A stretch of DNA of 64,000 nt, from assembly GCA_945787845.1 (NCBI GenBank), contig CALZJH010000007.1, forward strand, positions 186,001-250,000. The letters run 5' to 3'. The DNA is from an uncultured Woeseiaceae bacterium. Its GTDB lineage: Bacteria; Pseudomonadota; Gammaproteobacteria; Steroidobacterales; Woeseiaceae. The notes under the pieces were generated by a model, which was given only the letters and a program-made list of their open reading frames with translations, made no database searches and was not told where the DNA came from. Both the position numbers and the translations under genes were made by a program. Positions 45,107 through 55,430 of this stretch are shown here, in pieces; position 1 is the first letter of the stretch; each line of letters begins with the position of its first letter.

Positions 45107-46528
45107 CTATTCGTCGCCCAGCCTGTCGATGATGCGACTGGATGAGTGACCGTCACGGAATGCGAGTACCCGAACTTCACCGCCATTCTGCAGCACCTCG
45201 CGAGCACCGACGATTTCCTCGGGCCGGTAGTCACCGCCCTTGACGAGAACATCCGGCAACACCGCTTCGATCAGCCTGGCGGGCGTGTCCTCCGCGAATG
45301 GGACGACCCAGTCGACCGCAGCCAACCCGGCCAGCACCAGCAAGCGGTCTTCCAGTGCATTGATCGGCCGGGACTCGCCTTTGAGCCGGCGTACCGAGTC
45401 GTCGTCGTTGACGGCGACGATCAGCCGATCGCCAAGGCTCTTAGCCTCTTCGAGATAGGCCACGTGACCCGCATGCAAGACGTCGAAACAACCATTGGTC
45501 ATGATGACGCGCTCATTACGACCGTGGGACTCGGCGACCAGTGCCAGAAGCGCCTCAAGGTCGACCAGTCCCCGTCCACCCTGGCCACGCTGGTGCAATG
45601 CGGCGGAAATTTCGCCGGGTGTGACGGTCGCCACGCCGATCTTCCGGACGACAAGCCCGGCCGCGATATTGGCGAGCGCCGCCGCGGCTCCGAGTCCCTG
45701 GCCACTGGCCAGCGCCGCCGCGAGCGTCGCGATAACCGTATCGCCCGCGCCCGTCACGTCAAACACTTCGCGGGCCTGCGTTGACAGGAACAGGGGCTCC
45801 GCACCGGACTCGACCAGCAGCATGCCTTTCTCGCTGCGGGTCACGAGGAGCGCATCGAGTTGCAGCGAATCCATCATTGAGCGCGCGCGCTCGACCAGTT
45901 CTTCATCCGAACTGCTGGGTCCGGCCACGGCCTCAAACTCGGACTGGTTTGGCGTAATTAACGACGCACCGCGATACTTCTCGAAGTCTGTGCCTTTCGG
46001 GTCCACGAGGACGGGCACACCGGCGTCGCGACACGCCGCGATCATGGCGCGAACGTCAGACAAGGCGCCCTTACCATAGTCGGACAAGACCACGGCGCCC
46101 GCCCCTTCGAGCGTCTTGCTGAGCGCGTCGACCATCGCATCGCCGGGCATCGCCTGCGCTTTCTCTTCGTCGAGGCGAATGAGCTGCTGGCCCCGACTCT
46201 GAACGCGCGTCTTGGTAATCGTCGGCCGGTCGGCAGCCGTTGCAAAGCGGCACTCGATACCGCGGTCGCTCAGGATGGATGCCAAAGAATCGGCGGCCGC
46301 GTCCTTACCGACAACGCCGACAAGGCTGGTCGATACGCCGAGGGCCGCGAGATTCACCGCGACGTTGGCCGCGCCGCCAGGTCGATCGTCGGTTTCGTGC
46401 ACGTGCACGACGGGCACGGGAGCTTCGGGCGAGATGCGACCCGTGGAGCCGAACAGGTAACGATCGAGCATGACGTCGCCGGCAACGACGACGCGGGTCG
46501 ATGAGAAATCAGGAATCGAGATAGTCAC
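45107..46528 (-). CDS. hldE: Bifunctional D-glycero-beta-D-manno-heptose-7-phosphate kinase / 1-phosphate adenylyltransferase
   Basis: VVVAGDVMLDRYLFGSTGRISPEAPVPV; TNGCFDVLHAGHVAYLEEA. Confidence 0.97.
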   Translation of the reverse strand: MTISIPDFSSTRVVVAGDVMLDRYLFGSTGRISPEAPVPVVHVHETDDRPGGAANVAVNLAALGVSTSLVGVVGKDAAADSLASILSDRGIECRFATAADRPTITKTRVQSRGQQLIRLDEEKAQAMPGDAMVDALSKTLEGAGAVVLSDYGKGALSDVRAMIAACRDAGVPVLVDPKGTDFEKYRGASLITPNQSEFEAVAGPSSSDEELVERARSMMDSLQLDALLVTRSEKGMLLVESGAEPLFLSTQAREVFDVTGAGDTVIATLAAALASGQGLGAAAALANIAAGLVVRKIGVATVTPGEISAALHQRGQGGRGLVDLEALLALVAESHGRNERVIMTNGCFDVLHAGHVAYLEEAKSLGDRLIVAVNDDDSVRRLKGESRPINALEDRLLVLAGLAAVDWVVPFAEDTPARLIEAVLPDVLVKGGDYRPEEIVGAREVLQNGGEVRVLAFRDGHSSSRIIDRLGDE

Positions 46529-46588
46529 GCGGGCAATCTATCAGATTGAGCGCGCCGCAGCAGCTAGCCAGCCGCTCGTATCGTCGTC

Positions 46589-46649
46589 TCAGGCTAGCCG
46601 CACTTTGAATCGCCGCAACTGAGGCACGTCATGCACCCGTCCATCATGG
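46589..46649. repeat. Left copy of direct repeat flanking the PKD/HTCS segment (att-like)
   Basis: TCAGGCTAGCCGCACTTTGAATC core identical to 52430..52452. Confidence 0.88.
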
Positions 46650-46650
46650 C
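46594..46650 (-). pseudogene. Displaced 3'-end remnant of nrdJb (encodes MMDGCMTCLSCGDSKCG-stop)
   Basis: Translation identical to the last 17 residues of NrdJb at 52435; 23 bp perfect DNA identity (46589..46611 = 52430..52452) and about 52/61 identity over the whole aligned block, constant offset 5841. Confidence 0.9.
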
Positions 46651-46656
46651 GAAGAT

Positions 46657-46812
46657 TCAAGCGCCTGAACGACAAGGGGCGGGCCGGCGCCACCAGATGG
46701 CAGCCTCGATCTTCGCGGGGGGTGCCGGCACTCTCTCATACACACAGCGGATACGGCCAGCAGGTTCTGAGGTCAATTCAAACTTGCTGGCCGCACCGCT
46801 GCGGCATTTCAT
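46657..46812 (-). CDS. Small hypothetical ORF (51 aa), coding status uncertain
   Basis: ATG..TGA open frame MKCRSGAASKFELTSEPAGRIRCVYERVPAPPAKIEAAIWWRRPAPCRSGA immediately 5' of the nrdJb remnant. Confidence 0.25.
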   Translation of the reverse strand: MKCRSGAASKFELTSEPAGRIRCVYERVPAPPAKIEAAIWWRRPAPCRSGA

Positions 46813-46866
46813 GACTAGCGCTTCGTGATCGCTACCGGAGAGCGATATTCATGGTTTTTTCAAGGA

Positions 46867-47775
46867 TCAGTGGGCCCAGGGGCCGCCTCCTCCACCGGTG
46901 CACTGTTCTGCAGTGAACGTCTTCTTGCGTGACGGGCCACAGGTCGATTCAGCCGATGTAAGGCAGCCTCGAACCTCGACTGTATGACTGGAACCAGCAG
47001 TCAGCCATGGTAAGACTTCATAGTTGTCAACCTGGTACTCCACAGCCTGATTGTCGAATTTGTAATAGAAGATACTGGTCGGCTGAGGACCCGAACCCGG
47101 AGACCAGGTCAGCAGATGGCTAGCGGTCATGCCATAGCATCCGGTGAACTCTTCCAGAATCAACGACGGCCGGCCCGGCAGGTTGGGATTGTCAGTCAAG
47201 GTTATGGTTTCGGTGTGGCTGTCCTGACGCCCGTTTGCGTCGCTTATCGTGAGCGTAACGTTGTAGGTCCCAGCCAGATTGTACTGATGTGTCGGCGACG
47301 TCGCCGCGCTCGTCGTGTTATCGCCAAAATCCCAGAGATAAGTGCGGGGAAAGGCGCCGCCGGAGACTGAAGCCGAGAAAGTCAGGTCAGTCAGATTCCA
47401 GAGACTGCCGTTAACACTGACTGAATTGACCGACGGCAATTCATAAGCGTCCACAATGTGCCAGCAGTATCCCTGACCGACTGCCCAAGCGCCAAGTTGC
47501 CAACGGCCGCTGCTAGGTATGGGAATAATGCCAGCGTTGGTGCCGGCCGGAACGTTATATGCCAAATCGACGAAGGGCCCGTAGTTGAAACTGTAAAAGA
47601 AGTTTGCTGTTTCATCGACGGCCATTACCAAGTTGTCTCCTACGTAGTAGTTGTTCTGTGGAGAGACCATGTTATTGGAGAACCCCAGACCAAAGGGGGA
47701 TTCACAAAATGCATCGGCGAATGCATTAGTCGAGCCAAACAACAGAATCACAAACGCTAGAAGTTTCTGTTTCAT
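46867..47775 (-). CDS. Secreted PKD-domain protein
   Basis: Signal peptide MKQKLLAFVILLFGSTNAFA; PRTYLWDFGDNTTSAATSPTHQYNLAGTYNVTLTISDANG PKD repeat. Confidence 0.85.
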   Translation of the reverse strand: MKQKLLAFVILLFGSTNAFADAFCESPFGLGFSNNMVSPQNNYYVGDNLVMAVDETANFFYSFNYGPFVDLAYNVPAGTNAGIIPIPSSGRWQLGAWAVGQGYCWHIVDAYELPSVNSVSVNGSLWNLTDLTFSASVSGGAFPRTYLWDFGDNTTSAATSPTHQYNLAGTYNVTLTISDANGRQDSHTETITLTDNPNLPGRPSLILEEFTGCYGMTASHLLTWSPGSGPQPTSIFYYKFDNQAVEYQVDNYEVLPWLTAGSSHTVEVRGCLTSAESTCGPSRKKTFTAEQCTGGGGGPWAH

Positions 47776-47900
47776 AGGTTTTCCTTTCTGGTTGGATGAT
47801 TTTCAAAACGAGATCAGCGCTGCCGCTATTCCAGGCAGTCATAAACGATTTGGAACAGGTCAATTCAAGCCTGCAACGGCATCCAACGACACAACATATG

Positions 47901-47926
47901 GGACAAAATTCTCACGAATCGGGACT
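47901..47926. promoter_or_regulatory. Candidate regulator-binding direct repeat (GGGAC-N16-GGGAC)
   Basis: gggacaaaattctcacgaatcgggac; GGGAC half-sites 21 bp apart in the divergent intergenic region. Confidence 0.4.
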
Positions 47927-48154
47927 AGAGTTTCGGGTTGCGCGCGCCAAGAACGGGCCGATGGTTGGTCATAAGCGGTTAGAATCAATAGAAAAGCACT
48001 GAATAACGAACCGCTCTCGGCTTGACTTCACTCGCAGTCGAGAAAAGACGTCCTGCGTCGCACGCGTGGTGTACCCGCAATATTCCATCTGGTAATTTTG
48101 TTACACATATGTAGGGTCGCGAAGAAATACCGTCAAAGACCCTGCTTCAACAGG

Positions 48155-51100
48155 ATGAAGATGAAGTTTCGCTGCGGACTGATTGCGATTTTGTGCATTG
48201 CGTTATCTGAAACGACGCATGCCACCACGTACCGGTTCGAGGCGTTCGACTACGACTCTCACTACGTCTCCATTCGGGTCGATGCCGTCGCGCGAGGTGA
48301 GGACGGCTATGTCTGGATAGCCACCAACACCGGCCTGCAGCGCTTCGATGGCCGCTGGATCAAGCTCTTCAAACACTCCGATGAGCCAGGCTCTGTATCC
48401 AATAACCATGTACTGGACGTCATCTACGACGCGTCAGGTACTCTGTGGGCCGCAACCGAGGACGGCCTGAATCGGTTCGACCCACAGACCGAAACGTTTC
48501 AACAATTCCTGCATGACCCGGCCGATCCGTCCTCGATACCCGGCAAGACGGTCCGTTCCCTCGCCGTCGACAGCGCGGGCGTTCTCTGGCTGGCAACCGA
48601 CGGCGGTCTTGCTCGATTCGATGCTGAAACGGAGACATTCGCTCGTTACGTCCACGATCCGAGTAATCCGTCCACGCTCTCGGAAAACCTGATCATCAGA
48701 ATCGCCGTCGACGCAGAGGACAATGTCTGGGCATTGGCGAACGGCACGGGAGTCAATCACCTCAATGCGGACACCGGCGAAGTGACTCGATATCTGCCTG
48801 GCGCTGCGCAACATCGGGTCGACGATCGCCGAGCCCGATCCGTGGGCATCGGCGCCGACGGCTCTGTATGGATCGGCTATCGCGACGGCGACCTCGCGTT
48901 TCTGGACCGGGTGTCCGGAAACTTTCTGAAGTACACCGAATCCGTTGGTGACGTGGCGCCATTCAATGTGTCGGCGATCACGCCCCTGAGCGACGGCAAA
49001 CTCATGCTCGGCACTGTGAACCGGGGTCTGTTTGTGCTCGATCCGGCCGGCCAGGAGGACCTCGAGTGGGTGCCGCCCTCCTCTACGAATCCGGACGGCA
49101 TGCGAGCGAGCCATGTCGAAGATATCTTCGAAGACGCCGAAAGCAACATCTGGATCGCAACAATCGAGCACGGCCTGTACTTCCTTCGCAACGCTTACCG
49201 TTCGAAGAGCGCGCTTTCGCAATACTCCGCCGCGTGGAATCGTTTGCCGGACGATCTTGTTTGGAGCGTCTATGAGGATTCGGCCGGCCGGCTCTGGGTC
49301 GGGACGAATACAGAGGGTGTGGTGGTGCTGGACCGGGGAAACCGCGAGGCGCGCCATTATCGCCATGACCCTGCCGATCCGAGTTCGCTCAGCGGCAACC
49401 TTGTGCTTGATGTTTTCGAAGATAGCGACGGCTCTGTCTGGCTCGGGACAGGCGGTGGACTTAGCCGCTTCGATCCTGAGACCGAGACTTTCGAGCGGTT
49501 TTTCGAAGACGCAGATCATCCTCTTGCCTCCTACATGGTGGCCGAGCTATTCGAGGATAGCGAGGGTGGGCTTTGGGCAACCACGCTTGGCGGTGGGCTG
49601 GCGAGATTTATCGGGGACGAGCAGCAGATTTTTCAGCGCCAGGAGCAAGGCAATTCGATTTCCCATAACTACGTGACCAGCGTCGCCGAGTCCGCCGATG
49701 GAGTCATTTGGATAGGCACGCGTGACGGGCTCGACAGGCTCGAACTTGCTACCGGTGCGATCTCGAATTTCGATCTCCCGGATAACTGGGTTCTGTCGCT
49801 GCACTACAGCGCAAAGTCCGACAGAATGCTGGCGGGTACGGGAAACGGCCTGGTGTTTCTCGACCCGGGCTCCGGAGAACGAGCCCTGCAGGACATTACC
49901 GACCAGATTCCTCCTACCCAGGTCTTCTGCATTCTCGAAGTCGAGGACAGCTATATTCTGGGCACCGGTTTCGGGATCGTGACGATCGCTCCGCAGAATA
50001 TCGTGGAGAAATTCACGTGGTTTCATGGGATTCAGGCCGGATACAACCTGAATGCCTGCGACCAGGGCGCCGACTCGACGCTGTACTTCGGCGGCAACAA
50101 AGGTGTCGACTATTTTCGGCCGGACGAACTGAAGCTGAGCGATCATAAGCCGGTCGTTCACATCACCGGAGTGCGCCTGCAACCTCGCGACGGCTCCGCT
50201 GCGGAGTCCCTGCCGATGATTGGACCAGCGCCAGAGCTGGCACATGATCAGAACGATCTTCGTATCAACTTCACAGGAATCTACTTCGCGAATACCAAGG
50301 GATTGACTTATCGCCATCGACTGCTGGGACTGAGCGACGCATGGACGGTGCAGGACAAGGGAGATCCGTTTGTTTTGTCGCGGCTGGTGCCGGACAGCGT
50401 TGCGACTTACATGAACCTTGCGGCTGGCGACTACACGTTCGAAGTGCAGTATCAGTCGGTCGACGGAGCTGTCTCCGACACGGCGCGCTACACCTTTGCC
50501 ATCCTGCCAGCCTGGTGGGAAACGACGCTGGCGAAGCTGGTGTATGTCCTCGCCGCCATACTGTTGCTGACCGCGTTCGTCCGCTGGCGTACCCGCCAAT
50601 CGGAACGCGAACGGCGCGTGCTCGATCGCCTGGTGAAGGAGCGCACGGTCGAACTGAACCGCATGGCGCAGAGAGCTGCATCGCTCGCACAGCAAAAGAC
50701 CCGCTTGTTTGCCAATGTGTCTCACGAATTCCGTACACCGCTGACGCTCATCATCAATCCGATCACAACCATGCTGGAAAAGACAAATGACGCCGACGCC
50801 CGGCACCGGTTGGACGCCGTAAAGCGCAATGCGATGCGCCTGCTGGGTATGGTCGATCGCATGGTGACGTTCTCACAGCTCGACGCGGAAGCCAGGTCCC
50901 CTCGGGTCCTGTACGACGTCAATGCCGCCGTGACGCAGGTGTGCGATGGCTTCGAGACGGTGGCCAATGAGCAAAGCATTCAGCTGACCATCCGCGGAAC
51001 CGATCCGGTTTATGTCAGCCTCACAGAAGACTCCCTGGAGCAGATCGTCACCAATCTCGTTTCCAACGCTCTGAAGTACACCGAATCCGGGGGTGAGGTC

Positions 51101-52249
51101 ACTGTGTCCGTGCGGTTCGATAATCCCGACGTCGTCATCGAGGTTCGCGATACCGGCATCGGCATCAGCGAAGACAGGCAGACTGAGATATTCGAGCGTT
51201 TCCATCGCATCGAGTCCGAGCGGACCAGTCAGGTGCCGGGCACGGGGCTCGGCCTCGCCGTCGTTGCCGAGCTCGTCAAAGCCAATGGCGGCAGGATCGA
51301 GGTTGTGAGCACCCCGGGGGTCGGCAGCGCTTTCTCCGTCAATCTGCCCGGCGCGACCTCGTTCATTCCGGCCGACAGCGATCTGAAGCAGACCTTCAAT
51401 GGCCGGTTCGTCGAGCTCGAGCGACTCAGCATCATTCGGTCAGCGGAGTCGAGCCCTTCGCCCGAGGTCGCGCCTACCGACGATTCGGGTTCGCGCATCC
51501 TCGTCATTGAGGACAATGCGGAGATGCGTGAGTACGTGGTCGGGCTGCTTAGCGAGAAGTACGCCTGCTATTCCGCGAGCAACGGCACCGCGGGACTCGA
51601 TCTGGCGCAGGAGTGCATTCCGGACCTGATCGTCAGCGACGTGATGATGGCCGGCATGGACGGTTACGAAGTCGTGCATGCGCTGCGTGATGACGTGCGC
51701 ACGTCGCACATTCCGATCATCCTGCTGACGGCGAAATCAGATCATCAGAGCCGGATTGCCGGCTGGCTCGAAAACGTCGACGACTACATCGTCAAGCCGT
51801 TCGACCCCGAAGAGCTGGTTTATCGCATCGACAGCCTGCTGTCAGTTCGCGAACTGCTGCGCAAGCGCTTTGGTGCGGGCCTGAGCAAGGAAGATCCGGA
51901 GGACTCGCCAATCGTCACCGAGATGCGGCCAAAGGATCGAGATTTCCTGCAGAAGTTCGAGGCTATTGTTGCCAAACACTACGCCGATCACGATTTTCGC
52001 AGGTCGACCGCTGCCTCGCTGATGGCCGTCAGCGAACGCCAGCTGAACCGCAAGCTCAGCGCGCTCGTGGATCACAATTTCTCGGACTACGTGCGCAAAT
52101 ACCGTTTGAGGCAGTCGCTCAGCCTGCTCGATGAGGGACTGCAAGTCGCACAGGTAAGTGAGCGCGTTGGATTTTCAAACGCGAATTACTTCAGCTCGTG
52201 TTTCCGAGCCGAGTACGGCCAGACCGCGAAGTCTTACCAGATGCGCTAG
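48155..52249 (+). CDS. Hybrid two-component system: periplasmic beta-propeller/Y_Y_Y sensor, histidine kinase, receiver, AraC-type HTH
   Basis: Reg_prop repeats (GYVWIATNTGLQRFDG), Y_Y_Y region, TM, FANVSHEFRTPLTLI, GTGLGLAVVAELV, ILVIEDNAEMREYV...VSDVMMAGMDG...KPFD, C-terminal AraC HTH RVGFSNANYFSSCFRAEYG; probable start MKMKFRCGLIAIL. Confidence 0.94.
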   Translation: MKMKFRCGLIAILCIALSETTHATTYRFEAFDYDSHYVSIRVDAVARGEDGYVWIATNTGLQRFDGRWIKLFKHSDEPGSVSNNHVLDVIYDASGTLWAATEDGLNRFDPQTETFQQFLHDPADPSSIPGKTVRSLAVDSAGVLWLATDGGLARFDAETETFARYVHDPSNPSTLSENLIIRIAVDAEDNVWALANGTGVNHLNADTGEVTRYLPGAAQHRVDDRRARSVGIGADGSVWIGYRDGDLAFLDRVSGNFLKYTESVGDVAPFNVSAITPLSDGKLMLGTVNRGLFVLDPAGQEDLEWVPPSSTNPDGMRASHVEDIFEDAESNIWIATIEHGLYFLRNAYRSKSALSQYSAAWNRLPDDLVWSVYEDSAGRLWVGTNTEGVVVLDRGNREARHYRHDPADPSSLSGNLVLDVFEDSDGSVWLGTGGGLSRFDPETETFERFFEDADHPLASYMVAELFEDSEGGLWATTLGGGLARFIGDEQQIFQRQEQGNSISHNYVTSVAESADGVIWIGTRDGLDRLELATGAISNFDLPDNWVLSLHYSAKSDRMLAGTGNGLVFLDPGSGERALQDITDQIPPTQVFCILEVEDSYILGTGFGIVTIAPQNIVEKFTWFHGIQAGYNLNACDQGADSTLYFGGNKGVDYFRPDELKLSDHKPVVHITGVRLQPRDGSAAESLPMIGPAPELAHDQNDLRINFTGIYFANTKGLTYRHRLLGLSDAWTVQDKGDPFVLSRLVPDSVATYMNLAAGDYTFEVQYQSVDGAVSDTARYTFAILPAWWETTLAKLVYVLAAILLLTAFVRWRTRQSERERRVLDRLVKERTVELNRMAQRAASLAQQKTRLFANVSHEFRTPLTLIINPITTMLEKTNDADARHRLDAVKRNAMRLLGMVDRMVTFSQLDAEARSPRVLYDVNAAVTQVCDGFETVANEQSIQLTIRGTDPVYVSLTEDSLEQIVTNLVSNALKYTESGGEVTVSVRFDNPDVVIEVRDTGIGISEDRQTEIFERFHRIESERTSQVPGTGLGLAVVAELVKANGGRIEVVSTPGVGSAFSVNLPGATSFIPADSDLKQTFNGRFVELERLSIIRSAESSPSPEVAPTDDSGSRILVIEDNAEMREYVVGLLSEKYACYSASNGTAGLDLAQECIPDLIVSDVMMAGMDGYEVVHALRDDVRTSHIPIILLTAKSDHQSRIAGWLENVDDYIVKPFDPEELVYRIDSLLSVRELLRKRFGAGLSKEDPEDSPIVTEMRPKDRDFLQKFEAIVAKHYADHDFRRSTAASLMAVSERQLNRKLSALVDHNFSDYVRKYRLRQSLSLLDEGLQVAQVSERVGFSNANYFSSCFRAEYGQTAKSYQMR

Positions 52250-52429
52250 TCGCGCTCAATGATCGCTTCGATTTCCGCGACCTTTCCTTAAGTCGCCGGA
52301 TGATCCTCGCCTGGCACACGAATGGCAGCCTGGATCTGCGCTCATCGGCCCGGTTTCTGCTCGCGCCAATGGATTCGCTCCTGACACAGGGGCCCATATG
52401 GCAGCTTATGCGCACTCCCACACGGTAGT

Positions 52430-52490
52430 TCAGGCTAGCCGCACTTTGAATCACCACAGGACAGACACGTCATGCACCCATCCATCATGA
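52430..52490. repeat. Right copy of direct repeat (3' end of intact nrdJb)
   Basis: Aligned ungapped with 46589..46649. Confidence 0.88.
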
Positions 52491-53136
52491 TGACGGCTGT
52501 CGTGTTGCACTTCGTACACAGCTGGGCACCCTCGGGGTAGTCGCTGTCCGAAAACGCATCCGTCTGCTTCTTGGCTTCTTCGAATTGGGCACGCTTCTCG
52601 GCGATCAGTTTCTTCTGGCCCTCGTCGAGCTCCGGCGCAGCAATCATACCGATCATGATCAGGTGCTTCTCAACGATGTGGCCGAGCTCGGCAATGATCG
52701 ACGGCATGAACCTGCCGCCTGGCTGCCAGTAGCCGCCACGCGGGTCGAACACAGCCTTGAGCTCCTCAACGAGGAAGGTCACGTCGCCACCCTTGCGGAA
52801 GACGGCTGAAATAATGCGTGTCAGCGCTACGATCCACTGGTAGTGGTCGAGGTTCTTGGAGTTGATGAAGATCTCAAACGGGCGGCGCTTTTCATGCTCC
52901 GTCCCTTCATTGAGGATAATGTCGTTAACAGTCACGTACATCGCGTGATCCGACACCGGCGTCTTCACCTTGTAGGTCGAACCAACGAGCATCTCCGGGC
53001 GTTCGAGCTTCTCGTGCATGCGTATGACTTCCGCACGATCGCCACCACCCTCACGCTTGAACTCGCGTTTCTCTTCCTTTTCCTCGGCCGGCTGATTGAC
53101 AGCATAGCCCACGATTTTCTTGTCAATTTTGATCAT
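52435..53136 (-). CDS. nrdJb: Class II ribonucleotide reductase, C-terminal subunit NrdJb
   Basis: KRRPFEIFINSKNLDHYQWIVALTRIISAVFRKGGDVTFLVEEL; C-terminal MDGCMTCLSCGDSKCG; abuts nrdJa. Confidence 0.9.
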   Translation of the reverse strand: MIKIDKKIVGYAVNQPAEEKEEKREFKREGGGDRAEVIRMHEKLERPEMLVGSTYKVKTPVSDHAMYVTVNDIILNEGTEHEKRRPFEIFINSKNLDHYQWIVALTRIISAVFRKGGDVTFLVEELKAVFDPRGGYWQPGGRFMPSIIAELGHIVEKHLIMIGMIAAPELDEGQKKLIAEKRAQFEEAKKQTDAFSDSDYPEGAQLCTKCNTTAVIMMDGCMTCLSCGDSKCG

Positions 53137-55287
53137 TTAAAACTTTCCGTAATAGCCTTCTTTGAGAGCGTCGAACAGGTTCGCGGCAGTATGCACTTCG
53201 CCGTCGTACTCGATTTCCTCGTCGCCCTTGAGATCGATGGTCGACCCATCGTCCAACGTGAAGGTGTAATTCGTATTCTTGAGGTCTTTCTCTTTTACGA
53301 GCACGCCCTGGAACGCTTCCGGGTTGAATCGGAACGTCGTGCATCCCTTGAGGCCCTGCTTGTACGCATACAGGTAGATATCCTTGAAGTCACCGTAGGG
53401 ATAATCTGTGGGCACATTCGCCGTCTTCGAAATGGACGAGTCGATCCACTTCTGGGCAGCGGCCTGGATGTCCACGTGCTGATTCGGTGTGACCTCGTCA
53501 GCCGTGATGAAATAGTCAGGCAGGTTGTTTGCCGCGTCGGCGGCGCGCACCGGCATGGCATCCGGATCCACGCACTCGCGATACGCCAGCAGTTCGAATG
53601 AGAACACGTCGATCTTCTCTTTGGTCTTCTTGCCCTGGCGAATGACGTTGCGGAAATAGTGATGCGCGAAACTCGGCTCGATGCCATTCGACGCGTTGTT
53701 GGCCAGTGATAATGAGATCGTGCCGGTCGGTGCGATCGAACTGTGGTGCGTGAAACGTGCTCCGGTCTCGACAAGCTGGTCGACGAGCTCGGGCGCTTCC
53801 GCCGCAACGCGCTGCATATAGCGGCTGTAACGGGCGTGCAGAATGCGGCCCGGCACTTTGTCGCCAGCCTGGTAACCGTCCGTGCGCATCTCCGGGCGCT
53901 TGCGCAGCATCTCCTCGGTCACCTCGAAGTTCTCGTTCATGATCGGGGCCGGGCCCTTCTCCTTCGCGAGTTCAAGCCCCTCTTCCCAGCCAGCCAGTGC
54001 CAGCTGCCGCGAGACTTCCTCGGTGAACTCGACGGCGGCGGGCTCGCCGTACTTCATGCGCAGCATCGTGATGGTCGAACCCAGTCCCAAAAAGCCCATG
54101 CCATGACGGCGCTTGCGCTGGATCTCGTTACGCTGCTGCGGCAGCGGCAGGCCATTGATCTCGACCACATTATCGAGCATGCGCGTAAATATCTTGACCA
54201 CCTTGCGGAACTGTTCCCAGTCAAAGGCCGCCTCTTCAGAGAACGGTTTGACCACGAAACGCGTCAGGTTCACCGATCCCAGCAGGCACGAACCATAGGG
54301 CGGCAGCGGCTGCTCGCCGCACGGGTTGGTTGCGCGGATGTTTTCGCAGAACCAGTTGTTGTTCATCTCGTTGACCTTGTCGATCAGCACGAAGCCGGGC
54401 TCCGCGAAATCGTAGGTCGACGCCATGATGATGTCCCAGACACGGCGAGCCGGCAGCGTCTTGTAAACCTTGCAGGCGACCAGGCCTTCCGGATTCGTTA
54501 CGTAATTACCGGCTTCCGGCCAGTCACGCCACACGAACTGGCTCTTGTCATTGACGTCGAGCTTATCTTCCTCGGTTTCCTTGTGAGTGACGGGGAACGC
54601 GAGCTTCCAGTCATCCTCATTGATAACGGCCTGCATGAACTCGTCGGTGACCAGCAGCGACAGGTTGAACTGGCGCAGGCGGCCGTCCTCGCGCTTGGCG
54701 CGAATGAATTCCATGACATCCGGATGCCCGACATCGAACGTGCCCATCTGCGCGCCGCGGCGGCCACCCGCCGACGACACGGTGAAACACATCTTGTCGT
54801 AGATATCCATGAAAGACAGCGGGCCCGAGGTAAAGGCACCGGCGCCCGTCACGTAGGCGCCCTTCGGACGCAGCGTCGAGAACTCGTAGCCGATACCGCA
54901 ACCGGCTTTCAGCGTCAGCCCGGCCTCGTGCACCTTGTTGAGGATGTTGTCCATCGAATCGCCGACCGTGCCCGACACGGTGCAGTTGATCGTAGACGTA
55001 GCCGGTTTGTGCTCCTGGGCACCCGCATTAGACATAATGCGGCCGGCCGGAATCGCGCCGGAGCGTAACGCCCAGACAAATTCCTTGTAGAAATGTTCGC
55101 GCCGCGACTCTACCTCAACATTGGCAAGCGCCTCGGCAACCCGCTTATAGGTCTCGTCGATCGTGGCGTCGATCTTCGATCCATCTTTGGCGGTAAGTCG
55201 ATATTTTGCATCCCAAATATCGAGCGATGCGGGCTGAAATTCGATGTCGGTAACCGTGTGCGTGTCCAGATTGACGGCAGACTTCAT
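53137..55287 (-). CDS. nrdJa: Adenosylcobalamin-dependent ribonucleotide reductase, catalytic subunit NrdJa
   Basis: AGGRRGAQMGTFDVGHPDVMEFI; ATNPCGEQPLPPYGSCLLGSVNL; probable start MKSAVNLDTHT at 55287 (ORF extends to 55326). Confidence 0.93.
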   Translation of the reverse strand: MKSAVNLDTHTVTDIEFQPASLDIWDAKYRLTAKDGSKIDATIDETYKRVAEALANVEVESRREHFYKEFVWALRSGAIPAGRIMSNAGAQEHKPATSTINCTVSGTVGDSMDNILNKVHEAGLTLKAGCGIGYEFSTLRPKGAYVTGAGAFTSGPLSFMDIYDKMCFTVSSAGGRRGAQMGTFDVGHPDVMEFIRAKREDGRLRQFNLSLLVTDEFMQAVINEDDWKLAFPVTHKETEEDKLDVNDKSQFVWRDWPEAGNYVTNPEGLVACKVYKTLPARRVWDIIMASTYDFAEPGFVLIDKVNEMNNNWFCENIRATNPCGEQPLPPYGSCLLGSVNLTRFVVKPFSEEAAFDWEQFRKVVKIFTRMLDNVVEINGLPLPQQRNEIQRKRRHGMGFLGLGSTITMLRMKYGEPAAVEFTEEVSRQLALAGWEEGLELAKEKGPAPIMNENFEVTEEMLRKRPEMRTDGYQAGDKVPGRILHARYSRYMQRVAAEAPELVDQLVETGARFTHHSSIAPTGTISLSLANNASNGIEPSFAHHYFRNVIRQGKKTKEKIDVFSFELLAYRECVDPDAMPVRAADAANNLPDYFITADEVTPNQHVDIQAAAQKWIDSSISKTANVPTDYPYGDFKDIYLYAYKQGLKGCTTFRFNPEAFQGVLVKEKDLKNTNYTFTLDDGSTIDLKGDEEIEYDGEVHTAANLFDALKEGYYGKF

Positions 55288-55430
55288 TGGTCCTGTTACT
55301 CCCCTGACTCCCTTAGGAGACCCCAAAATGCTGTTTTAGCGAGCTATTCTTCCGGAGAAAAGGGCCCCGCTCGCCAACGGCCAGAGTGCGCGTGACGAGA
55401 GCCGTTTCCGACCTCATTTCTCTTCTGATC

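Follow-up and report, generated by a model that had tools for sequence, protein, structure and literature searches.

The 3′ end of nrdJb, which encodes the C-terminal part of a split class II ribonucleotide reductase, is probably an attachment site for a family of Tn7-like transposons. The 5.8-kb segment that follows this gene in the window (the whole 64,000-nucleotide stretch of DNA analyzed) is best read as a truncated derivative of a transposon, which probably entered together with a foreign nrdJb end through recombination. The full account, comprising a Tn7-like site at nrdJb, the derivative in the window, and a recombinational import that left a native remnant of the gene end, is given a probability of about 0.6. 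The host genome belongs to a Woeseia-like genus, and Woeseiaceae and unclassified gammaproteobacterial MAGs predominate among its named relatives. The locus contains the following features.

45107 to 46528, minus strand: hldE, the core gene across the insert from nrdJb (HldE equivalog)
46529 to 46588, no strand: native nrdJb-hldE intergenic sequence, ~90% identical to that of the sister species (L067)
46589 to 46648, minus strand: distal repeat copy, a 60-bp remnant of the native nrdJb end (contiguous alignment with L067 from here through hldE)
46652 to 46712, minus strand: 3′ half (positions 77 to 138) of the dispersed non-coding repeat R, adjoining the distal nrdJb remnant
46867 to 47775, minus strand: PKD-domain protein, cargo (domain matches; best homologues in the genus 38 to 41% identical)
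48098 to 52249, plus strand: hybrid two-component sensor/regulator, cargo (domain matches: Reg_prop, Y_Y_Y, HisKA, HATPase, response regulator, and AraC-type HTH)
52322 to 52395, minus strand: 5′ half (positions 19 to 92) of the dispersed non-coding repeat R
52389 to 52422, minus strand: Tn7-like transposon end TGTGGGAGTGCGCATAAGCTGCCATATGGGCCCC, aligning with the L119 end and with the end of the complete L075/G670 element at the same place after nrdJb
52423 to 52434, minus strand: 12-bp spacer from the nrdJb stop to the transposon end, closing with TACCG, the expected but unpaired target duplication
52430 to 52489, minus strand: proximal repeat copy, the live nrdJb end (sequence comparison)
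52435 to 53136, minus strand: nrdJb (TSCPD domain, NCBIfam B12-dependent RNR match)
52438 to 52600, minus strand: 3′ part of nrdJb, likely a foreign allele (~17% diverged from L067 versus 6% elsewhere; breakpoint P = 0.013)
53137 to 55326, minus strand: nrdJa, the catalytic part of the class II ribonucleotide reductase (domain and NCBIfam matches)

An acquired segment bounded by two copies of the nrdJb end

The nearest relative is a sister species (L067) with a 99% identical NrdJb protein and an empty site, hldE lying 68 bp after nrdJb. The alignment of the window with this locus extends from a point upstream of nrdJa to the end of the proximal repeat; it resumes at the distal repeat (46648) and continues through hldE and beyond. 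The empty site and collinear alignment of L067 show that ~5.8 kb was added here and that the distal copy occupies the ancestral position. The segment is therefore a real acquired insert, as a sequence-only reading of the window had proposed, and the distance of ~65 bp that it predicted between nrdJb and hldE after removal of the segment agrees with the ~66 bp found here, which is near the 68 bp seen in L067.

The earlier claim that the 3′ end of nrdJb is directly repeated was also borne out: the two copies are identical at 52 of 60 bases and are spaced 5,841 bp apart, and the identical core is the first 23 bp, which crosses the stop codon. The repeat scores 36 (≤12 in shuffled sequences) and is present at two places only in the 3.68-Mb genome, which are both ends of the insert. 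Both copies encode the peptide MMDGCMTCLSCGDSKCG followed by a stop. The earlier count of nine differences in 61 positions becomes eight over 60 aligned bases; its statement that the peptide is unchanged holds, as all eight coding differences are synonymous, an outcome given by none of 200,000 simulations with eight random changes. An assembly or binning artefact that joined two places might be suspected in a draft genome of 33 contigs, but it is very improbable, given that the longest identical run between the copies is 23 bp, that both junctions align with the collinear locus of L067, and that two halves of one repeat (R) flank the cargo in order.

The distal copy encodes an intact C terminus but is not part of any nrdJb reading frame of greater length, a TGA lying just upstream. 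No further nrdJb sequence was found beyond 46648; homology to the L067 nrdJb ends there, repeat R starts, and the join at 46648/46649 is abrupt. A remnant that encodes an intact C terminus could have come from a second, full-length nrdJb that decayed in place, which had been named earlier as the alternative that would refute an island, or from duplication of the gene end in tandem. Either event is extremely improbable: nrdJb homology stops where R begins, a dead copy would not gather synonymous changes alone, and L067 has one copy.

Within the live gene, identity to L067 is ~94% over the first 540 bp and ~84% over the last 160 bp. The breakpoint test, which was weighted by site variability, gave a modest P value of 0.013, and among ten other comparisons only that between the window and L069 was clearly significant, with a different breakpoint. 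Nearby 154-bp stretches with similar divergence to L067 exist beside the 3′ end of nrdJb. Sequence comparison suggests, short of proof, a foreign origin for the live end of the gene. The earlier proposal that one repeat copy is a foreign gene end is probable on the basis of this 3′ divergence and the exclusively synonymous differences, tempered by the modest P value.

Tn7-like elements at nrdJb in relatives

A complete Tn7-like element of 30,382 bp starts 11 bp after the nrdJb stop in G670 (genome G069, locus L075). It has inverted ends with repeated CATAAG sites, is flanked on both sides by a 5-bp duplication (CAACC), and encodes TnsA (weak match), TnsB, TnsC (TniB/TnsC, 9.6e−26), and a 774-amino-acid TniQ (2.6e−18). 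Its TnsB matches TnsB in the PDB (2e−74), the closest solved structure being TnsB of CRISPR-associated Tn7-like elements, and its TniQ, the sole TniQ of that genome, matches solved TniQ proteins. Among the cargo genes are those for a class II pAgo and its partner, a Helical-REase (L189; L075, 9006 to 12469). A minimal element of 1,922 bp lies 15 bp after the nrdJb stop in G036, with both ends found and GCTCA on both sides; the flanks joined without the element match the empty site of L072. This element lacks a tns/TniQ core and would be non-autonomous. In G056, of another family, Tns/TniQ homologues are 43 to 62% identical, one end is visible, and no 5-bp duplication is visible. At L119 (3901 to 3960), a solo Tn7-like end lies 33 bp after nrdJb with a gltD-like gene downstream, and no TniQ was found in that genome.

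When 396 genomes of the order were scanned with the G670 TniQ, six proved to have it, and it lies beside nrdJb on the same contig in five of them (G069, G056, G134, G177, and G709). In three of these five, all of a further genus, TniQ is only ~26% identical. The transposon ends of the TniQ genomes and of G036 begin 11 to 30 bp after the nrdJb stop. Overall, the elements at nrdJb have TGTG...CACA ends and 5-bp duplications and start 11 to 33 bp after the stop; the far side of the complete elements carries no copy of the nrdJb end. The core of TGTGGGAGTGCGCATAAGCTGCCATATGGGCCCC, with ≤4 substitutions allowed, is found in 1.69 Mb of fetched loci only after nrdJb (window, L075, and L119). The pattern used to scan for ends was written after L075, L119, and the window had been seen, and the independent confirmations are G036 and the genomes found through TniQ.

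The position of the operon beside nrdJb in five of the six TniQ genomes points to TniQ-directed homing to this gene. It is rather likely that the nrdJ 3′ end is the homing target, across the order, of a Tn7-like family whose TniQ/TnsD proteins form two or more divergent lineages (~26% identical) and which carries cargo such as Argonaute defense genes, that nrdJ is a new safe harbor, and that the window insert is a decayed descendant. The earlier view of the nrdJ 3′ end as an attachment site thus holds in this group, with Tn7-like elements as its users.

A related TnsABC-TniQ operon in G204 (L200 and L201) is not adjacent to nrdJb within the fetched part. Terminator-like hairpins, several with a T-run, were seen by eye within less than ~250 bp inside the nrdJb-facing end at L075, L119, L080, L199, and L202 to L205, as if insulating the element from the nrdJ operon.

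The window insert as a probable transposon derivative

The window insert has one Tn7-like end, 12 bp after the nrdJb stop, which aligns with the ends in relatives and has one recognizable binding-site repeat, compared with two or more in complete ends. A second inverted end and a matching 5-bp duplication were not found in 46530 to 52435. The insert contains no tns genes, its two cargo genes being the only ones, and no TniQ is present anywhere in the genome (G000).

Positions 19 to 92 and 77 to 138 of R flank the cargo in order and are the sole pieces of R found in the genome. This arrangement suggests that a single copy of R once lay between the distal remnant and the transposon end and that the kinase and PKD genes now sit within it. 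With the cargo inside this split dispersed repeat, its arrival may have been independent of that of the transposon end. In the genus, R has a sharp 5′ end (GCGGATAGTGCGTATAAGGGGCCATTATGTCAGG) and a variable 3′ extent (~35 to 700 bp) and occurs in one to three copies in 15 of 73 genomes (L147 to L154 and L178 to L187, besides the two window pieces). R had no Rfam match and no unusual fold. No repeats surround 16 other R copies, and R therefore fails as a maker of target duplications and as an explanation of the 60-bp repeat.

None of the other 72 genomes of the genus holds a close homologue of the sensor/regulator. A donor was sought through relatives of the cargo, and none was close in the genus, in evenly drawn samples of the order (PKD protein), or in evenly drawn samples of the class (sensor kinase). 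Phage origin of the insert was considered and found generic matches only.

The nrdJb-hldE junction as an insertion hotspot

More than 600 bp (0.6 to 14.6 kb) separates nrdJb from hldE in eight of the 51 relatives that have both genes, and no inserts of >600 bp were found in these relatives at six other junctions of the neighborhood. The contents vary and include RND efflux, a methyltransferase, an epimerase, a putative capsular polysaccharide protein, and beta-lactamase-fold proteins. Two different inserts (L033, 3466 to 4296, and L034, 2385 to 3224) are alike in that the gene immediately following nrdJb, and convergent with it, encodes a class II glutamine amidotransferase. In 21 relatives (L085, L087, L091, and 18 other loci), hldE is absent here and kdtA directly follows nrdJb.

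The segment had been interpreted from sequence alone as a probable integrated island with attL and attR at its ends, either a mobilized passenger or a decayed element. As an island of a tyrosine recombinase, it would have the 23-bp core as the crossover site and the two repeats as attL and attR, and would have lost its integrase. Direct repeats that cross the gene stop at both ends of an island of foreign genes, together with an existing empty site, are what such an origin would leave, and the earlier observation that the segment holds no integrase is correct. However, no integrase was found among the ORFs examined in the window insert or in the other inserts, and the repeated nrdJb end is absent from the other large inserts tested at the junction, where the proposed check had anticipated further islands ending at the same core; a duplicated gene end as a common att was rejected for this absence. 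The repeat has only its two copies in the genome, the part in which they differ lies inside the gene and does so synonymously, which an attP arm would not need, and the elements shown using the site are Tn7-like. A tyrosine-recombinase origin is accordingly improbable, and the repeats are not considered att sites.

A less remote alternative, still unlikely, is that the window segment is an integrase-free insert of hotspot type instead of a Tn7-like derivative. Varied inserts without recognized mobility genes or Tn7-like ends in G018, G033, G007, G021, and others fit this possibility, and mobile elements are missing from many known hotspots (PMC5635113). Against it, the end in the window corresponds in position and sequence to the ends of complete elements at nrdJb, and its core motif is confined to nrdJb ends in the fetched loci.

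Proposed mechanism

A truncated, imported Tn7-like derivative is thus the preferred reading. The conserved end of nrdJb is probably recognized by a large TniQ/TnsD protein, much as TnsD acts at glmS, and the last ~50 bp of the gene would be the target sequence. TnsABC would then place the element 11 to 33 bp downstream of the stop, duplicating 5 bp of the target and leaving nrdJ intact. The window insert would derive from such an element, with one end kept and the second presumably lost.

The 60-bp remnant is not a normal product of transposition, because complete elements have no nrdJb end at their far side. It most likely arose when donor DNA that comprised a foreign nrdJb end and the attached insert was imported. 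One side would have entered through homologous recombination within nrdJb and the other through a non-homologous join in the recipient's own nrdJb end, which would leave the 60-bp native remnant beside hldE. The divergence of the nrdJb 3′ part, the synonymous-only differences between the copies, and the collinearity of the distal copy with the native hldE flank speak for import, and recombination in nrdJb combined with a non-homologous join would fit all parts of the locus.

Few chromosomal homing genes are known for Tn7-like elements, and a TniQ that reads nrdJ would add a gene of nucleotide metabolism. If true, this would extend the range of protein-guided insertion specificities, and defense and accessory genes of Woeseia-type bacteria could be sought at the 3′ end of nrdJ. 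The papers searched contain no description of nrdJ or ribonucleotide reductase as a target of Tn7-like elements or TnsD, and an earlier listing in a supplementary table is possible; by title and abstract, papers naming both Tn7 and nrdJ concern Pseudomonas and Streptomyces physiology.

Comparison with known systems

The nrdJb elements of relatives resemble Tn7 and Tn7-like elements at glmS (TnsD) in their TnsABC and large TniQ, TGTG..CACA inverted ends with repeated sites, 5-bp duplication, and location shortly after the stop of a conserved gene (PMC11406308). They differ in that the site is nrdJb and not one of the targets tabulated in that review (glmS, yhiN, comM, parE, and tRNA genes), and the window copy differs further in lacking machinery and having one end only. 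The G670 element, with its class II pAgo and Helical-REase, resembles Tn7-like elements with defense cargo (PMC8649781), although neither Argonaute nor nrd genes come up in the main text of that paper. The cargo of the window differs, consisting of a PKD protein and a hybrid sensor kinase. Integrase-free hotspots between core genes (PMC5635113) share with the nrdJb-hldE junction a varied cargo and inserts mostly without mobility genes, but some nrdJb-hldE inserts carry Tn7-like ends. For the proposed import, the parallel is homology-facilitated illegitimate recombination, which was proposed for the displaced ends of type VI secretion system (T6SS) effectors in Vibrio (PMC5361080). Both cases would combine a homology anchor on one side, a non-homologous join on the other, and an old gene 3′ end moved downstream; in the present case, a housekeeping gene would serve as the anchor and the piece displaced measures 60 bp, the likeness being one of inferred events.
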